Positions 22,541 through 29,973 of a stretch of DNA of 64,000 nucleotides are shown piece after piece (position 1 is the stretch's first letter; the number at the start of each line of letters is the position of its first letter). The DNA is from an uncultured Kiloniellaceae bacterium (GTDB lineage Bacteria; Pseudomonadota; Alphaproteobacteria; Kiloniellales; Kiloniellaceae), in assembly GCA_947493695.1 (NCBI GenBank), contig CANLSF010000003.1, positions 434,001 through 498,000 of the forward strand, given 5' to 3'. The notes under the pieces were generated by a model, which saw only the letters and a program-made list of their open reading frames with translations, was not told where the DNA came from and ran no database searches. A program made the position numbers and the translations under genes.

Positions 22541-25117
22541 CTACAAACGTGGGTCCACTGCCTCACTTTCCATGGCGAGCACACCAAAAACACATTCATG
22601 TACCCGTCGAAGTGGCTCACGATTGGCAAAGCGCTCAAGCGCCTCAATCCCCAACGCGAATTCCTGGAGAGCCAGCGCCCGCTTACGGCCAAGCCCACGA
22701 CGGCGTAGACGCGTCAGATGCTCAGGCCGGTCGTAGTCCGGACCGTAGATAATCCGCAGGTACTCGCGGCCCCGGCACTTGACCGCAGGCTGCACGTAAC
22801 CGCGCGGACCGCGAGTCACGAAGTCCATGGGTTTCACCACCATGCCCTCGCCACCCTTCGCGGTCATCTCCAACCACCATTCGCACGCGGCCTGAACCTG
22901 CGCCTCGTCAGCGACGTCGATAAAGCGATGATCGGTCTGGAACAGCAGATCCTCATCCGCCTCACAGAGCAGACGCAGTTGTTCCATGTGCCAGCGATGA
23001 GACTTGTCATCATGCACGCCCCCTTCGCTTCCCAGCAGATGGAACGGCGCGATACGAAGATCTTCCAGCTTCTCCACCGGCCAGACGTAGTGGCCATAGG
23101 CCTTGCGGTAGGCTACGGCGTTGTCGAACCTAGAAGACATCTTTTCGCGCAGCGTTTCCAGGTCCAAGCCACGGGCAACCCCTTGCTGAACCGTAACAAG
23201 AGCCGCCTGCAAACCTGCGTTGGCCGCGGCGCCGACGGCACCGTACTGATGCTCGATCAGGGACTGCGCCTTGACCGACCAGGGCATGATCTCCGCATCC
23301 AGACAGAGCCAATCCGTCTCCAACGCATCCCAGAGACCGCACTGCTCGGCAGCCTTTGACACACGTGCCAGAACGCCCGCGACTATAGCGGGATCATAGA
23401 AGAAGGGTCGGCCGGTACGGGTGTAAATCGCCCCGAGCGCATCGCTCTCAATCCCAAATCGCCGCAGCGCCACGCTGTCATCACGCGTGACCACCAGCAC
23501 CGCGCGGGAGCCCATATGCTTCTCCTGCGCAACAACGCTCTCGACACCCTGCGCCTTAAAGTAACGCAAGGCATCTTCGGGGTGCTCCAGGAACCCTTCG
23601 CGTGCTGAGGTTTCCGATGGCGACATAGTCGGTGGCAGGTAGATCAGCCAGCGGGGATCGATGGCAAAGCGGCTCATAACCTCCAGGGCGGCCGCACTCT
23701 GGTCATCGCGCAAGGTGACGGCCCGGCGCAGGCGGGTCGAGATGATCCGCTTGCCGGTCACATCCTCCAGGTCCAGCAAGGCATCCGGTGCCGCGTTTGG
23801 ATCGGAGGTCACATCGCTCGCCGGTATCAATGGGCGTGCGGGCTCCATGTAGGTTCGCTCAGCCGGCACTTCGACCAGTTCCATCTCCGGGTAGCTCAGC
23901 GCCGTCAATTTGCCACCGAACACACAGCCGGTGTCGATGCACAGAGTGTTGTTGATCCATTCCGCCTCTGGCACTGGCGTATGGCCGTAGACCACCCGCG
24001 CCTTGCCACGGTATTCCGAAGCCCAGTCGAACCGAACCGGCAGGCCGAAGTCATCCGTCTCGCCAGTCGTCTCCCCATACATGGCAAAAGACCGTACCTT
24101 GCCGGAAGAACGGTTCTGCATTTCCTCACGCAAGCCCGCGTGGGCAACAACCAGGCGGCCATCGTCCAGCACGAAATGACTGATCAAGCCATCGATAAAA
24201 CGCAGCATTTCCTTCTTGAAGGCGTCGCTCTCGCTTTCAAACTGCTCCATTGTCTCGGCGAGACCATGAGTCAGCTTCACGTTGCGCCCGCGCATCGCCC
24301 GGCCCAACTTGGCCTCGTGATTACCCAGAACACAGCGGGCGATGCCGTCATCGACCATGGACTTTGCAATACGCAGAACGTCCGGTACGCGCGGCCCCCG
24401 GTCGACCAGGTCGCCAAGAAAGATTACGCGCCGCCCTTCAGGTGCGGTGACACTGTAACGTCTATCGCCTTCACTCTCATCCAGGGTGACGCCATAGCCG
24501 AGCTTTTCAAGCAACTGCTCCAACTCGGTTGCGCAGCCGTGAATATCGCCAATGATGTCGAAAGGCCCCTGTTCGTCCCGCTTATCGACCCAGAGCCGGT
24601 CACGCAAGATCTCAACGGCGTCCACCTCCTCTTCTGACTTGAAGCGGTAGATAAAGCGGATGCCGTCACGATCCATGCGCCGCTGTCCGCGCCGAAGCGA
24701 ACGGATGTGGTTGCGTACAACGTGGGGGCCGAAAGCACGATCCGGTCGCAAGGCATTGCGCTCGTGGCAAAGCGCTTCCGGCACATCGAAGACAAAGGCA
24801 ACGACCAGTGCATGATAGCGCTTGGCCAGAGAGATGAGATCTCGTCGGTCCTCGGAACGCACATTGGTCGCGTCGATGACGGTCAGGCGCCTGCGCTTCA
24901 AGCGAGTCTCCGCAGTGTAATTCAACAGCGCAAAGGCGTCGTGGGTCGCCTCCAGATCATTCTCGTCATCCGACACGATCCCCCGGCAGCGGTCAGAGGA
25001 AATCACCTCGGTCGAGCGGAAATGACGCGCTGCGAAGGTCGACTTCCCGCAGCCGGTCGGCCCGACCAGCAGCACCATGCAGTACTCCGGGATGTTAATT
25101 CTGTTCTTATCAGTCAT
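22541..25117 (-). CDS. pnkp: Polynucleotide kinase-phosphatase-ligase Pnkp (RNA repair)
   Basis: This 858-aa three-domain RNA end-healing and sealing enzyme matches the roughly 870-aa Clostridium thermocellum Pnkp. The N-terminal kinase has the P-loop GPTGCGKS at residues 19-26. The central metallophosphoesterase carries GDIHGC, GDLVDRG and GNHE. The C-terminal ATP-grasp adenylyltransferase has the nucleotidyl-lysine motif KHMGSR around residue 530. The kinase phosphorylates 5'-OH ends, the phosphatase removes 2',3'-cyclic phosphate or 3'-phosphate, and the adenylated ligase needs Hen1 to seal. An eight-base gap separates it from hen1 upstream. AGGA supports the ATG at 25117 over a TTG three bases earlier. 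It is last of the repair genes on this strand. Confidence 0.95.
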   Translation of the reverse strand: MTDKNRINIPEYCMVLLVGPTGCGKSTFAARHFRSTEVISSDRCRGIVSDDENDLEATHDAFALLNYTAETRLKRRRLTVIDATNVRSEDRRDLISLAKRYHALVVAFVFDVPEALCHERNALRPDRAFGPHVVRNHIRSLRRGQRRMDRDGIRFIYRFKSEEEVDAVEILRDRLWVDKRDEQGPFDIIGDIHGCATELEQLLEKLGYGVTLDESEGDRRYSVTAPEGRRVIFLGDLVDRGPRVPDVLRIAKSMVDDGIARCVLGNHEAKLGRAMRGRNVKLTHGLAETMEQFESESDAFKKEMLRFIDGLISHFVLDDGRLVVAHAGLREEMQNRSSGKVRSFAMYGETTGETDDFGLPVRFDWASEYRGKARVVYGHTPVPEAEWINNTLCIDTGCVFGGKLTALSYPEMELVEVPAERTYMEPARPLIPASDVTSDPNAAPDALLDLEDVTGKRIISTRLRRAVTLRDDQSAAALEVMSRFAIDPRWLIYLPPTMSPSETSAREGFLEHPEDALRYFKAQGVESVVAQEKHMGSRAVLVVTRDDSVALRRFGIESDALGAIYTRTGRPFFYDPAIVAGVLARVSKAAEQCGLWDALETDWLCLDAEIMPWSVKAQSLIEHQYGAVGAAANAGLQAALVTVQQGVARGLDLETLREKMSSRFDNAVAYRKAYGHYVWPVEKLEDLRIAPFHLLGSEGGVHDDKSHRWHMEQLRLLCEADEDLLFQTDHRFIDVADEAQVQAACEWWLEMTAKGGEGMVVKPMDFVTRGPRGYVQPAVKCRGREYLRIIYGPDYDRPEHLTRLRRRGLGRKRALALQEFALGIEALERFANREPLRRVHECVFGVLAMESEAVDPRL

Positions 25118-25125
25118 CAAAAATC

Positions 25126-26523
25126 CTACCTGGAAAAGACGGCCATTTGAGTTGGCGCGCCGTGTTCCTCATGAACCACGCCGATCCCGTCAAACTCCAC
25201 CTGATAGTCGTTACGGTCCGCCACGCCCCTAGCCCAGCTTTCAAATTCGACCCGGGTCCATTCGAAACGATGGTCCGGGTGTCGCAAGCGCTCAGGCTCC
25301 ATGTCCTCAAAGGTCGCATTGTATTCCCGGTTCGGCGTCGTCACCACAACAGTCGGCGGTTGAGCCTCGGCAAACACCACACGCTCGAAAGCAGGCAGAC
25401 GCTCCGGCTCCAAGTGTTCGATCACTTCAACCGCCGCCAGCGCATCGAACGCCTTCATGCGCTGATCACGATAGAGCATGGACCCCTGCAGCAATTCGAT
25501 CCGCGCACGCTGCCGGTCGGGCATGCGTTCAAGACGCAAACGGCGCTCAGCCTGCTGCAGAACCTTGGGTGCAACATCCAAACCCGCGATCCGGGTGAAC
25601 TGCTTTTCCTTCAGCAAACTCCGCAAGAGGCGCCCCTGCCCGCAGCCAAGATCCATCACGCTGGTCGCGCCGGCATCCAGCAGGGTGCGGGTCACGGTTT
25701 CCATCCTCAGCTCGTTCAGACGGATCGGTTTCTCCAGCTCTTCCTCGGGCGCATCCAGGACCTCCTGAACCTCACCGGTCTGTGGTTCCTCTCGAGCCGC
25801 CAGGCCCTCAAGCGCAACTCGAGTAAGACTCCGCTGGTTGCGCAGGTAGCGGCGTACGATCAGATCCTTATCGGGGTGCTCGTCCAGCCAGCCCGTGCCT
25901 TTGGCGAGCAACTTTTCCACCTCGTCGTTCCCGACGTAGTAGTGCTTCTGATTGTCCAGCACCGGCACCAGCACGAAGAGATGCGTCAGCAGGTCGGTGA
26001 TCCGCTTGGTCGCCCGCAAGGTAACGGTGACATATTGACTGTCACCCCAATCCGGAAAAGCCGGATCCAGCGGGTGCGGCTCAACTTCGACTTCGTAACC
26101 CAACGGCGCGAAAAGCCGCTCAAGTAACTCGCACCCACCCCGGCAAGCCAAGGGTGCAATGCAAACCTCAAGCGGGATGGCAATTTTGGCAAGTTCTGAG
26201 CGTTCCTTGGAGCGGCCTGCAAGCGCCGTACCCAGCAACTTGGAGATGGCAGCAGAAAGGAAAGACGAGGCCACATAAGGCCGGTCGTTCACGTACTGCC
26301 CAAAAGCCCCACTCTGCCATGCCCCCTCGCAACCGCGCACCAGTTGCACCGGGTCAACGTCCAGCAGCAATGCAGCCGTGCAACGCTCCTCCGAGGCTTC
26401 CGGGTAAAAGAGATGCGCCCGACCGAAAGCGAGTTCACGCGCATGCAGCGAATTCGGGTTCTTATGCAAAAGGTAACCCAGATCCGTCGCCGGGCGGTGT
26501 GTGGTGGTAATGGTCAGCAACAT
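25126..26523 (-). CDS. hen1: RNA 3'-terminal ribose 2'-O-methyltransferase Hen1
   Basis: This 465-aa protein has the length of bacterial Hen1. Residues 1-250 are the Hen1 N-terminal domain that contacts and activates the Pnkp ligase; residues about 270-465 are a SAM methyltransferase. Motif I is SVMDLGCGQGRLLRSLLKEK near residue 290. EVIEHLEPERL and the later HPDHRFEWTR supply the Glu-Glu-His-His metal site that Hen1 uses to methylate the terminal ribose 2'-OH. Methylation before sealing protects the repaired site from renewed cleavage by ribotoxins. It lies 16 bp behind the nucleotidyltransferase gene and eight before pnkp, so the three are surely co-transcribed. Confidence 0.95.
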   Translation of the reverse strand: MLLTITTTHRPATDLGYLLHKNPNSLHARELAFGRAHLFYPEASEERCTAALLLDVDPVQLVRGCEGAWQSGAFGQYVNDRPYVASSFLSAAISKLLGTALAGRSKERSELAKIAIPLEVCIAPLACRGGCELLERLFAPLGYEVEVEPHPLDPAFPDWGDSQYVTVTLRATKRITDLLTHLFVLVPVLDNQKHYYVGNDEVEKLLAKGTGWLDEHPDKDLIVRRYLRNQRSLTRVALEGLAAREEPQTGEVQEVLDAPEEELEKPIRLNELRMETVTRTLLDAGATSVMDLGCGQGRLLRSLLKEKQFTRIAGLDVAPKVLQQAERRLRLERMPDRQRARIELLQGSMLYRDQRMKAFDALAAVEVIEHLEPERLPAFERVVFAEAQPPTVVVTTPNREYNATFEDMEPERLRHPDHRFEWTRVEFESWARGVADRNDYQVEFDGIGVVHEEHGAPTQMAVFSR

Positions 26524-26539: not shown

Positions 26540-27349
26540 TTATCCAGACCGATCCAAAGCCTCGTTCCCGAAGCCCAGGACAGACCGGAAGATTTTATTG
26601 GCTCCGTCAGTAAGGTTTTGTGGCGGCACAAAAATCTCGTGATCCGGCCCTCGTGCCAGATCGAACTCACCCGTGATGAAGTCATCGAGCAGCGGAATAC
26701 GCGGCCCCTTGCCAAGTTCCCGGGTGACGCGCTTGCGCTCCAGGAGCTCATCCAAGAAGTCCGATACTTCGTTCGGCAAGTCACAGCCCGGCCGAAGTTC
26801 GGGTACAGACATAGGCACCCGCAGATCCGGATTGCCTCGTAACCAGCGTAAAGCCAAAGCAGGCCGCAAGGCATAAAAGTACTTTTTGATCGAGACCTCG
26901 TCCTTGTCGGCAATAAAGCGGTTCCACTGCTTCTCGCCGAGCTTGAGATAGTGATAGCGAGCGGGTGTGTGATGCAGCGTGCAATCCGCCAGCTTCCGAA
27001 CCTGCGATACAAAGGCCTGATCGCTGCGGTAGATGATCGGCGATTCCAACCATTCGTGCAGCACCGGATTTGGTTTGATCAAAAGCTGTAACGCCTTTTT
27101 CAGGTCCCAGCCGTTGATGTCCAAGTCATCCACAATCGGCAGCTCGATCACATCACGCCCCGGCTCGATGGTCAGATACCACTCCGACCGATGCACATAG
27201 AGAAAGCGCACATCGTAATCGCTGTCCGGCGAAGGGAACCCCCACGCGCGGCTGCCCGACTCAACAGCAAGCAAAATCCGTACGCCGTAATCCTGCTCGA
27301 CCTGATCAAGTTGCCGCTGAACTTCTTTTTGAATAGTTGGATCGATCAC
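26540..27349 (-). CDS. RlaP-type nucleotidyltransferase (RNA-repair associated)
   Basis: This 269-aa member of the polymerase-beta nucleotidyltransferase superfamily has its catalytic signature at residues 32-47: G-S-R-A-W-G-F followed by DSDYDVR, giving GS-x9-10-D-x-D. The later IKPNPVLHEWLESP and YFYALRPALALRWL segments are what I recall of the RlaP/YcgL-type family (PF10127), often found next to RNA ligases. It may add nucleotides or nucleotidylate a broken RNA end before sealing, but activity is unproven for the family. Translation starts with GTG at 27349. It is 16 bp ahead of hen1. Confidence 0.88.
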   Translation of the reverse strand: MIDPTIQKEVQRQLDQVEQDYGVRILLAVESGSRAWGFPSPDSDYDVRFLYVHRSEWYLTIEPGRDVIELPIVDDLDINGWDLKKALQLLIKPNPVLHEWLESPIIYRSDQAFVSQVRKLADCTLHHTPARYHYLKLGEKQWNRFIADKDEVSIKKYFYALRPALALRWLRGNPDLRVPMSVPELRPGCDLPNEVSDFLDELLERKRVTRELGKGPRIPLLDDFITGEFDLARGPDHEIFVPPQNLTDGANKIFRSVLGFGNEALDRSG

Positions 27350-27537: not shown

Positions 27538-27930
27538 TCACCCCAAGTTCTTCTCGGCCCCGCATTCGCTGCAGTGCCGGTCATACTGTGATCGCAGAAG
27601 CTTTCCGCAGCTCCAGCAGGGTGGGCCGAGGCAGGATTTCTGGTGGACCAGGATGTGGTGCGCGGATGTGCTGACGCCGCGCAGGTCCACGCCGGTCAGG
27701 TCCAGATGCTTTTCGTAAACCGGCGCAAAGAGCTCGGCTTGCGGCACCTGGGCGTCCGGGCCGCCGTGCGCTGCACGGAAGGCCCGGACCTTTTCCAAGG
27801 CTGAGCTGCAGGTCTGCTCGATCTCACTAACCTGGGCCTGGGACAGCAGCGGCACCTCAACCCCGCAGATCCCACAAAACCCTAAATCCTGATCGATTAC
27901 GGCCTGACTCGCCAAACTTGCTTCACACAT
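27538..27930 (-). CDS. Small zinc-ribbon protein in the RNA-repair island
   Basis: This 130-aa protein has CGIC at residues 19-22 and a C-terminal ribbon in which CWSC and, about ten residues later, CSEC supply four Cys ligands; other Cys and His residues (HHILVHQKSC) precede it. A helical, acidic segment links the two ends. Similar ends, of the form GPPC-x2-CGK-x-L-R, occur in uncharacterised small bacterial proteins. The function is unknown. Its location between rtcB and the RlaP/hen1/pnkp genes suggests an RNA-binding or adaptor role. GGAGG five bases before the ATG at 27930 makes that start better than the one at 27942. Confidence 0.75.
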   Translation of the reverse strand: MCEASLASQAVIDQDLGFCGICGVEVPLLSQAQVSEIEQTCSSALEKVRAFRAAHGGPDAQVPQAELFAPVYEKHLDLTGVDLRGVSTSAHHILVHQKSCLGPPCWSCGKLLRSQYDRHCSECGAEKNLG

Positions 27931-27975
27931 TGCATCCTCCATCCGGCCGTCCTCGACGACCGTTCCATACTTCGC

Positions 27976-28338
27976 CTACCTCACGCGCTCTCCGTTGTGG
28001 TAGGCCGCTACGACCGCTATCGGTCCCAGCAGATTTCTATTCAAAGCCTCGAGTTCCTCTGCAGGAACCCAAAGCTCGCGGTGCGCCGAGCCGCCGGCCT
28101 CATTGGCCTCAAAGGACTCGGCAAAGCCATCATCGAGTTCAAACTCGGTCACAAAGCCCAGATGCTCATGATCCGGGCAGGTCGAGTTCCAATCGCGCGC
28201 GATCTTCTCGGCGTAATCAAAGCTCAAGACCGGGTAGAAAATCGGTTGCTCCGGCAATCGGGGCGGAAAGCCTTTCATACCTGCGGCTTCAATCTTCTCG
28301 AGTTCGTTCCGTCCCACAGGACGCCAAAGTTTCATCAT
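27976..28338 (-). CDS. Small conserved-type protein of unknown function in the RNA-repair island
   Basis: This 120-aa soluble protein starts MMKLWRPVGRNELEKIEAAG. A Pro- and aromatic-rich middle (FPPRLPEQPIFYPVLSFDYA) follows, then an acidic half ending in LWVPAEELEALNRNLLG. I recall similar small proteins beginning KLWRPVG-x2-EL that are loosely labelled ADP-ribosylation/crystallin J1-like, but I cannot assign an activity and see no catalytic motif. GAGGGAG stands just before the ATG pair at 28338; the frame is open 36 codons further upstream but that part is low complexity and basic. It lies 140 bp behind rtcB on the same strand. Confidence 0.75.
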   Translation of the reverse strand: MMKLWRPVGRNELEKIEAAGMKGFPPRLPEQPIFYPVLSFDYAEKIARDWNSTCPDHEHLGFVTEFELDDGFAESFEANEAGGSAHRELWVPAEELEALNRNLLGPIAVVAAYHNGERVR

Positions 28339-28399
28339 TCCGCTCCCTCTTCTCTCTCTCACGTTTTGCAGCGGTTTCGAGCTTGCTTTTCTGCGCTCG

Positions 28400-28427
28400 G
28401 CCGCCGGGTCCGGATTGACCCGGCGGC
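28400..28427 (-). repeat. Perfect GC-rich hairpin between rtcB and the next gene
   Basis: GCCGCCGGGTC and GACCCGGCGGC form an 11-bp perfect stem with a 6-nt loop in the 139-bp gap after rtcB. Without a T run it is more likely an mRNA processing or stability element than a terminator. It could set unequal expression of rtcB and downstream genes. Confidence 0.6.
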
Positions 28428-28477
28428 ACCGCCTTATTGGCCGCAAACAGACGGGGACACCCGTTTGCGGCGCGGTC

Positions 28478-29695
28478 TCACCCCTTCACACAGACAACCT
28501 GCTTCAAGGTGTGAACCACATCGACCAGATCGGCCTGGGCCGCCATCACTGCGTCGATGTTCTTGTAGGCCCTGGGCGTCTCATCCAGAACGCCCCGGTC
28601 TTTCCGGCACTCCACCCCTTCCGTCGCATCGCGATGGTCCTGAAGGGTGAACTTCGCCTTTGCCGCCGTCCGGCTCATGGTCCGGCCGGCGCCGTGGCTG
28701 CAGGAGTGAAAGGACTCCGCGTTGCCCCGTCCCCGGACGATGAAAGACTTCGCCCCCATCGACCCCGGGATGATGCCAAGCTCTCCTTCGCGGGCCGAAA
28801 CGGCCCCTTTCCGGGTCAGCCAGACATCCGCATCGAAGTGCCGCTCGCTCGCCACGTAGTTGTGGTGGCAGTTCACGGCCTGCTTCGTCGTGGTGAAGGG
28901 CGGCAGCAAGGGACGGATCGCAACCAGGATCCGTTCCATCATCACCTCCCGGTTCACCCGCGCGAAATCCTGAGCCCACATCACCGCTTCGAGGTAGTCG
29001 CCGAAGAGCTGATCTTCGCCCTCGATGAAGTAAGCCAGGTCACGATCCGGCAAGGCATGCCCACGGACCTTTTTCTCGATCGACTTCCGTGCCTCCTGAA
29101 TGAAGTAACTGCCGATCCGGTTACCCACACCCCGCGACCCGGAGTGCAACATGATCCAGACTTTGCCCGCTTCATCGAGACAGAGTTCGATAAAGTGGTT
29201 GCCTGCGCCGAGCGACCCGAGATGAACCACGGAGTTCGCCCCTGCGATTGCCGGATGCTTGTCTTCGATCCGCTCAAGACCTTCACTCAGGCCACTCTCC
29301 TGGAAACGTTTGGACACCCGCGAGGGAATCTCGTTCTTCCATCCGCCCTTTTTACCGGTCCCGCCATGGGGCACGGTCCGCTCAATGACCGAGCGAATTT
29401 CCGCAAGAGAATCAGGCAATTGCTCAGCCGTGAGACTGGTTTGCACCGCCATCATGCCGCAACCGATATCGACCCCGACAGCCGCAGGAATGATCGCGCC
29501 TTTGGTTGCGATCACGCTTCCGACCGTCGCGCCACGTCCGAAATGAACGTCAGGCATGGCGGCAACATGGCTATGCACGAAGGGAAGCCGGGCGACGTTT
29601 GTAAGCTGCTGGCGCGCCGAATCATCGACCGGCACCCCTTTGGTCCACATCTTCACAACGGCGCGTCCCGTCTCAATCACTTCAAAGCCACTCAT
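28478..29695 (-). CDS. rtcB: RNA 3'-phosphate/5'-OH ligase RtcB
   Basis: This 405-aa protein is close to the length of E. coli RtcB (408 aa). It has all family landmarks: PDVHFGRGATVGSVIATKGA near residue 50, GVDIGCGM with the metal-binding Cys, HGGTGKKGGW, GAGNHFIEL, HSGSRGVGN and SCSHGAGRTMSR, where His334 is the expected GMP-accepting nucleophile. RtcB joins 2',3'-cyclic phosphate or 3'-phosphate ends to 5'-OH ends using GTP and manganese. GAGGAG directly before the ATG fixes the start at 29695; the frame upstream is a basic low-complexity run. No rtcA, rtcR or archease gene is adjacent. Expression probably depends on the leader structure at 29773-29967. Confidence 0.95.
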   Translation of the reverse strand: MSGFEVIETGRAVVKMWTKGVPVDDSARQQLTNVARLPFVHSHVAAMPDVHFGRGATVGSVIATKGAIIPAAVGVDIGCGMMAVQTSLTAEQLPDSLAEIRSVIERTVPHGGTGKKGGWKNEIPSRVSKRFQESGLSEGLERIEDKHPAIAGANSVVHLGSLGAGNHFIELCLDEAGKVWIMLHSGSRGVGNRIGSYFIQEARKSIEKKVRGHALPDRDLAYFIEGEDQLFGDYLEAVMWAQDFARVNREVMMERILVAIRPLLPPFTTTKQAVNCHHNYVASERHFDADVWLTRKGAVSAREGELGIIPGSMGAKSFIVRGRGNAESFHSCSHGAGRTMSRTAAKAKFTLQDHRDATEGVECRKDRGVLDETPRAYKNIDAVMAAQADLVDVVHTLKQVVCVKG

Positions 29696-29772: not shown

Positions 29773-29810
29773 AAAAAAAAACCCTCCCGAAGCCTGTGCC
29801 TGGGAGGGTG
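29773..29810 (-). terminator. Intrinsic terminator in the rtcB leader
   Basis: CACCCTCCC pairs with GGGAGGGT across a 13-nt loop and is followed by an uninterrupted T tract on the minus strand. It lies upstream of rtcB, not after any gene, so it ends a short transcript or attenuates the operon. Confidence 0.85.
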
Positions 29811-29841
29811 TTTGTCGAAACCGGAGACTGCGTTTTATATG

Positions 29842-29922
29842 TTACCGCAGTCGTTTCCCACCCTCCCGGAGGCACGCAATATCCCACGCAGTATGCGCGA
29901 GGCGTTTGCCTGCGAACTGCAT
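29842..29922 (-). CDS. Possible 26-codon leader peptide
   Basis: An ATG-to-TAA frame of 26 codons lies inside the leader, beginning MQFAGKRLAH and ending GGKRLR, with four Arg codons of which one is CGA. Its stop codon is just past the 5' arm of the antiterminator, so a ribosome finishing it would cover that arm and favour termination. There is no clear ribosome binding site, and the frame could be chance. Confidence 0.2.
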   Translation of the reverse strand: MQFAGKRLAHTAWDIACLREGGKRLR

Positions 29923-29973
29923 TTGGGAATTGACGTTTCGGTATAAGGTCGGGGTCATCGGTCTCGTCCAAAT

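Follow-up and report, generated by a model that had tools for sequence, protein, structure and literature searches.

A probable ribosome-controlled attenuator before the rtcB RNA-repair operon of a Kiloniellaceae bacterium, with a leader peptide of high amino-acid variety

The rtcB-RlaP-Hen1-Pnkp operon of an uncultured Kiloniellaceae bacterium is, judging by its leader, probably under the control of a ribosome-controlled transcription attenuator. The leader was found in a window of 64,000 nucleotides (the whole stretch of DNA that was analysed), where it lies between a hydrolase gene (end 30154) and rtcB (start 29695), all on the minus strand. This reading draws on what appears in the sequence, namely a leader ORF, mutually exclusive pairing arms, a terminator, a coordinated change of these arms between relatives and an excess of amino-acid variety in the leader peptide. 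The variety of the peptide is the surprising part, and the mechanism would be a new variant of ribosome-mediated attenuation. We regard it as somewhat probable that the leader peptide serves as a test strip for all tRNAs, with codons for nearly all amino acids maintained by selection ahead of the first pairing arm.

Operon, leader and proposed switch

The RNA-repair cassette behind the leader consists of rtcB, two small genes, RlaP, Hen1 and Pnkp:

28478-29695, minus strand: rtcB, RNA ligase (PF01139, 419 bits), first gene of the operon under the proposed control
27976-28446, minus strand: uncharacterised operon protein without Pfam or NCBIfam match
27538-27942, minus strand: small protein with a weak zinc-ribbon match (PF13248, 21.4 bits, cut-off 27)
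26540-27349, minus strand: RlaP, RNA-repair nucleotidyltransferase (PF10127, 269 bits)
25126-26523, minus strand: Hen1, RNA 3'-terminal 2'-O-methyltransferase (TIGR04074, 694 bits)
22541-25120, minus strand: Pnkp, polynucleotide kinase-phosphatase-ligase (TIGR04075, 1367 bits; also PF16542)

A profile search identified a single RtcB in the genome of the window. Named relatives (L013-L015) belong to Denitrobaculum tricleocarpae, an uncultured Kiloniellaceae bacterium and Pelagibius, and their RtcB is 94-96% identical. For the two small genes (27976-28446 and 27538-27942), relatives among the fetched loci were confined to the genus. The first-pass annotation had seen no RtcR-type activator, and this now extends to the whole genome of the window, in which RtcR (PF06956) had 0 matches while the E. 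coli positive control was matched.

The elements of the leader are the following:

30052-30047 and 30029-30024, minus strand: likely promoter, TTGACT and CAACGT with a 17-nt spacer, a near-invariant block in 4 congeneric sequences
29842-29958, minus strand: leader ORF of 38 codons, MTPTLYRNVNSQMQFAGKRLAHTAWDIACLREGGKRLR, preceded by GGACGAGA
29869-29958, minus strand: putative sensing zone, codons 1-30 ahead of the arm, with 19 of 20 amino acids
29859-29867, minus strand: segment 2, 5' arm of the antiterminator, GGGAGGGTG, inside the leader ORF
29826-29852, minus strand: hairpin whose loop contains the stop codon of the leader, GACTGCG (29852-29846) with CGCAGTC (29832-29826)
29802-29810, minus strand: segment 3, CACCCTCCC, common to antiterminator and terminator
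29781-29788, minus strand: segment 4, 3' arm of the terminator, GGGAGGGT, read from the sequence
29773-29780, minus strand: T tract of the terminator, eight T, read from the sequence

The first-pass annotation had proposed three arms followed by a T tract, an extension of the upstream pairing past a two-base bulge and a further hairpin in front. Direct reading confirmed all of these on the minus strand; the extension is TGCCT/AGGCA, and the hairpin is GACTGCG/CGCAGTC, with a larger one 5' of it according to fold prediction. A point overlooked at that time is that the upstream arm sits within an ORF: segment 2 falls in the last leader codons (REGG), and the leader ATG is preceded by the ribosome-binding-site-type GGACGAGA. 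Mutually exclusive antiterminator and U-tract terminator, which characterise ribosome-mediated attenuators, are both present. The conserved TTGACT-17-CAACGT lies upstream of the hairpins, which are therefore probably transcribed, as the attenuation claim required. The -10 element is weak, and a consensus scan detected no promoter in this leader region; at 16 of the 20 loci listed, TTGAC stands 57-115 nt upstream of the leader ATG. The same scan, permitting terminator loops of 3-8 only, did not have this terminator in its output.

The minimum-free-energy analysis that had been suggested came out in favour of a structured leader. The 211-nt leader folds at -86.1 kcal/mol, compared with -63.8 +/- 4.3 in 200 dinucleotide shuffles, none of which was as stable (z -5.2), and the inner domain between the arms has a z of -3.3. 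When the codons of the window's leader ORF were shuffled, a 9-nt complement of the terminator arm arose at P 0.001. All three arms are unchanged across four congeneric sequences, and length and frame of the ORF are kept in 4/4 of them, with moderate changes in the protein (dN/dS 0.40-0.76 in 6 pairs of the four congeners). Codon 5 of the leader (29946-29944) is TTA (CTA in L091), a Leu codon with 3% use in ten window genes. Codon rarity in the sensing zone is ordinary (P 0.27).

We infer the transcription start, the coupling to the ribosome, the signal and the readthrough as follows. RNA polymerase would start about 60 nt upstream of the 38-codon leader ORF. A ribosome stalled or lagging in about the first 27 codons would leave segment 2 free to pair with segment 3 once this is made; with 2:3 formed, the terminator 3:4 would come too late, and rtcB-RlaP-Hen1-Pnkp would be transcribed. 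Smooth translation into segment 2 (codon 31 on) would open or prevent 2:3, so that 3:4 could form and transcription would end at the T tract. Since 19-20 of the 20 amino acids are represented in the codons ahead of segment 2, repair should be induced when nearly any tRNA is lost, e.g. to an anticodon nuclease, and also by a general inhibition of translation. The first-pass annotation had left open whether an RNA, a protein or a ribosome chooses the fold. This can be narrowed: a leader ORF spanning the 5' arm speaks for the ribosome, and it is most likely a ribosome on the leader peptide that gives the deciding signal.

Occurrence before rtcB and change of the arms

A DNA search with the whole leader gave a match in 4 of 23 family genomes, all within the genus, and distant leaders were therefore sought via rtcB. 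The loci came from named contigs (77 loci, 24 of them inspected by eye and the rest by scan only), from the order of the window (16 loci, 15/61 genomes), from a sample of the class (26 loci, 25/385 genomes) and from a second order, the one including Hyphomonas-like leaders (102 matches, 100/299 genomes). By eye, and with copies removed, 28 loci were found in which a leader ORF containing a GGAGG-type arm stops a short distance ahead of a terminator, and they were grouped into 14 alphaproteobacterial lineages. Such leaders occur at 14/16 loci in the window's order, at 8/26 in the class sample (L121 being the weakest of these) and at 12/77 named loci. Left out of the counts were L013-L015 and L110, judged by equal alignments and equal sequence to be copies of L091-L093 and L021, respectively. 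About 265 nt separate attenuator and rtcB at the latter locus (L021:2736-3000), with another possible small ORF among them.

Because these first 28 leaders were picked by eye, amino-acid content was ignored in the two scans that followed. Under a strict rule, an ATG ORF of 20-45 codons had to span a Watson-Crick arm of at least 7 and to stop 15-45 nt short of the terminator; this held for 13/36 terminators upstream of rtcB (109 loci, 5 lineages) compared with 0/103 other terminators in the same sequences. In the second order, a relaxed rule identified 69/96 loci versus 3/96 reverse complements, 0/96 shuffles and 31/2036 tiles elsewhere; with a promoter/Shine-Dalgarno filter, 59/96 remained versus 0 reverse complements, 0 shuffles and 7/2036 tiles. 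These 96 are the examined part of the 102 matches: G241 and G122 were already in the collection, and G648, G644, G654 and G668 were excluded for a missing start or too little upstream sequence.

Covariation in relatives had been named as a check of the leader, and the arms do change together, as read from the arm sequences of individual leaders; a MAFFT alignment of 14 leaders had lost the register of segment 3. The commonest arms across lineages are GGGAGGG/CCCTCCC/GGGAGGG or a shorter GGAGG form. In L100, L102 and L103, an extra A/T/A is found in segments 2, 3 and 4 (CGGGAAGGG/CCCTTCCCG/CGGGAAGGG), and L105 has CCGGAAAGG/CCTTTCCGG, with segment 4 pairing via one G-U. The end of segment 2 lies 8-20 nt from the end of the ORF (14-20 nt in 17/25 loci). 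The domain between the arms is folded (mean z -2.0, below -1 in 22/25), and in many leaders its hairpin includes the stop codon. In the codon-shuffle test for segment 2, P was <0.05 in 13/25 leaders and >0.05 in 12/25. An earlier version using RNAduplex with codon shuffles, which permits long bulges, was weak and was superseded by contiguous matches and the controlled strict scan. Attenuation by exclusive pairings, as originally claimed, is thus supported by the structure, by the coordinated change of the arms and by the conservation of the design before rtcB.

Modelled folding is consistent with such a switch. The 2:3 stem is part of the minimum-energy fold in 25/25 leaders cut before segment 4. 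For the window's leader modelled without segment 4, 2:3 has a mean of 0.99 for stalls at codons 1-26 and stays >0.5 to codon 27; if only the part of the arm that is still free is counted, it falls to zero at codon 30. Stalls at early codons gave means of 0.79-1.00 over the 28 leaders. With no ribosome in the model, 2:3 was >0.5 in 21/28 leaders and <0.5 in 7/28 (L097, L108, L018, L020, L021, L024, L017). As the RNA would also be on without a ribosome in these 21 modelled leaders, the operon would, on the test-strip reading, be off only while a complete tRNA set works. At equilibrium with segment 4 and no ribosome, the terminator wins (0.99) in L090, L093 and L094, the three computed; it also wins at every modelled stall in L093 and L094, and in L090 the outcome changes with the position of the stall. 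Since equilibrium favours the terminator, the switch would have to be kinetic, set by the order of synthesis, which is how attenuators act.

Amino-acid variety of the leader peptide

The 30 codons before segment 2 encode 19 different amino acids in the window and 20, 20 and 20 in three congeners; in the window, Glu comes later. Windows of real proteins contain 13.9 +/- 1.9 amino acids, giving P 0.0007 for 19 and 0.0000 for 20 (40,000 windows). Several codons of one regulated amino acid were looked for in this zone and not found, and there are 19-20 different amino acids instead. The four congeneric peptides are related to one another, with individual residues shifted in position. L091 and L093 differ at nine residues of the zone without losing any of the 20 amino acids, an outcome that random replacement gives in about 1% of trials; keeping the window's 19 of 20 is unremarkable in the same test (about 20%, P about 0.2).

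Outside this genus, the zones of a sister genus contain 18, 18, 17 and 19 amino acids. The variety summed over 17 representatives is 262, compared with 226 +/- 7.5 expected from protein windows and 223 +/- 6 from random codons. After removal of the window's family, it is 206, compared with 184 +/- 6.7 (P 0.0006) and 180 +/- 6, respectively. The variety is confined to the reading frame: at 22 loci, the sum is 353 in frame versus 276 and 290 in the other two frames, with 0, 22 and 7 stops. In the second order, 10 of the 69 detected leaders were dropped before the test (without promoter/Shine-Dalgarno support or with a low score), and 28 leaders with <50% identity gave 407 versus 355 +/- 8 (other frames 328 and 326). 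As 9 of these 28 representatives resemble leaders of the first set, the test was repeated on the other 19 peptides, which are mutually unlike, and gave 275 versus 244 +/- 7 (other frames 228 and 217). This second set is enriched in Gln, Asn, Cys, Tyr, Pro and Arg and depleted in His (0.28), Ile and Gly (0.56), Trp (0.64) and Val (0.65). Completeness is strongest in the genus of the window; elsewhere there is variety, not completeness.

If the peptide is indeed a test strip, inactivation of any single tRNA species would halt the ribosome in the zone and turn the repair operon on. Each tRNA alone would be an inducer, and recoding its codon would abolish that response only. The leader would then be a sensor made only of RNA that measures the lost function, an unreadable codon, and not the broken molecule, and such an RNA-only answer would recur before rtcB across Alphaproteobacteria. 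An amino-acid-complete leader, if selected, would represent a novel principle of attenuator design. A rather doubtful alternative, although the one to be taken most seriously, is that the attenuator is driven by the ribosome and senses slow translation generally (drugs, cold, poor initiation), with the variety as a by-product. It would agree with the response of the PA5471.1 leader of Pseudomonas aeruginosa to ribosome-targeting drugs (PMC12057347, PMC13041342, PMC3516279) and with the 252-fold rise of rtcB in Acinetobacter baumannii with tigecycline (PMC7652931). In the model, stalls at any early codon are equivalent, and the variety is ordinary in several leaders (L098, L100, L105, L082, L121). 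A general sensor needs no variety, yet the variety exceeds that of real proteins, of random codons and of the other two frames, and the full set of 20 is retained even though residues have shifted position (P about 0.01).

Other readings and relation to known systems

It is improbable that the leader binds a metabolite, an RNA or a protein and picks its fold without translation. Such a role would suit the extensive folding of the 5' part; against it, Rfam (T-box, riboswitches, known leaders, YrlA) gave 0 matches at the gathering score in the window and no match in L090, L094, L106 and L082. From lineage to lineage the leader differs in sequence but retains its ORF, the position of the arm and the terminator, and segment 2 lies within the ORF in 28/28 leaders, a set selected for this. 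A permissive Rfam search gave three matches at chance level, the best being Phe_leader with 15.9 bits (cut-off 55). It is very improbable that the terminator simply ends the upstream gene or yields a free small RNA, with the repeat of the arm arising by chance. The hydrolase gene does lie on the same strand, and termination in the leader would release a short RNA, but the design occurs in none of the 103 control terminators. Fetched congener loci lack the window's nearest upstream gene and have a different hydrolase there, and yet they keep the leader; Hyphomonas loci have a separate terminator ahead of the promoter. An arrest peptide sensing one ligand via its sequence is hardly credible, since the peptide, despite a regular leader ORF and residues common to some groups near the end (e.g. 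DRQPVEG), lacks sequence conservation from one family to the next and is only partly conserved even inside a single genus group (L094 vs L097, dN 0.64).

The ribosome-controlled attenuator proposed here resembles classical ones in part. In the trp and his attenuators, a leader peptide precedes exclusive hairpins and a U-tract terminator, the position of the ribosome decides and the codons of one amino acid are repeated. In the present leader, in contrast, nearly all amino acids occur once or a few times. Its arm lies inside the ORF, unlike in trp and his, so the ribosome must pass through it. The closest known system is PA5471.1-armZ of Pseudomonas aeruginosa, in which an RtcB-like gene is transcribed when the ribosome stalls on a leader of 13 aa (PMC12057347, PMC13041342, PMC3516279). 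In this leader Q3 and F4 are important, the product of armZ (PA5471) is an efflux-pump anti-repressor, and armZ is induced via stalling when the tRNA CCA-adding enzyme is lost (same reports). The two systems share a short leader, a target of RtcB fold and exclusive hairpins, and the terminator as default and the ON state of an untranslated leader, both known for PA5471.1-armZ, are also proposed here. They differ in the length of the leader (13 aa versus 38 codons) and in amino-acid variety, which is not described for PA5471.1 in the parts of the reports available. Moreover, the RtcB of the window falls outside TIGR03073 (157.4 bits, cut-off 271.8), the RtcB-like group to which ArmZ presumably belongs.

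Some other rtcB genes are controlled by proteins. In Salmonella, tRNA fragments that end in a cyclic phosphate are bound by RtcR (PMC7790460), and this sigma-54 activator raises rtcB on damaged tRNA (PMC7790460, PMC9650030). A response to damaged tRNA would be common to this rtcBA system and the present leader, but RtcR and an adjacent rtcA are absent here. In Anabaena, rtcB goes up under translational stress without RtcR, and TrcR is a DNA-binding repressor of the gene (PMC10272220); the RtcR-free rise is alike, whereas the proposed leader would work without such a repressor. In the available text of the cited papers, the sensors for induction of rtcB are thus proteins (RtcR, TrcR). A search of the open-access literature (titles and starts of abstracts, with few subscription papers) recognised no leader-peptide attenuator of rtcB and no all-amino-acid leader. 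Among 38 rtcB genomes, RtcR (PF06956) was found in 1/19 with the leader and 8/19 without; the sole leader genome with RtcR is G397, where RtcR lies on the contig of a second rtcB. RtcR (at least 100 bits) was near 0/28 leader loci versus 18/85 others in the fetched flanks, whose lengths differ, and rtcA was near 0/28 leader loci in the flanks searched, window locus included.

The two rtcB loci of G397 appear to be under different control, one contig carrying the leader attenuator (L110/L021, C23) and another YrlA, RtcA and RtcR (L129, C20). Y-RNA-like genes upstream of rtcB pass the Rfam YrlA cut-off only in L129 (3000-3132, minus strand) and L047 (2793-2922, plus strand); inspection by eye or by motif gave similar ones ahead of rtcB in L116, L117, L124 and L126, and TROVE/Ro matches were found in 4/38 genomes. 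In Pseudomonas fluorescens, a 25-aa ORF (MHANKIAIFLCDLTGVLAAPWVEAG) with 16 different amino acids lies upstream of rtcB (L030:2794-2871), together with a hairpin without a good T tract. The rtcB of a Thiotrichaceae bacterium is preceded by a TTGACA element, a 10-aa ORF (MRKIQLNSKN; L068:922-954) and a strong terminator, in this order. Finally, rtcB in Janthinobacterium is preceded by an 11-aa ORF (MFEQAGSKYYH; L069:2768-2803), with a TTGACG promoter-like element upstream of it and a strong terminator downstream. Leaders of this type were read in L069 and L073, with terminators at matching places in L071-L076, and they are possibly a beta-proteobacterial version, close in size to PA5471.1.
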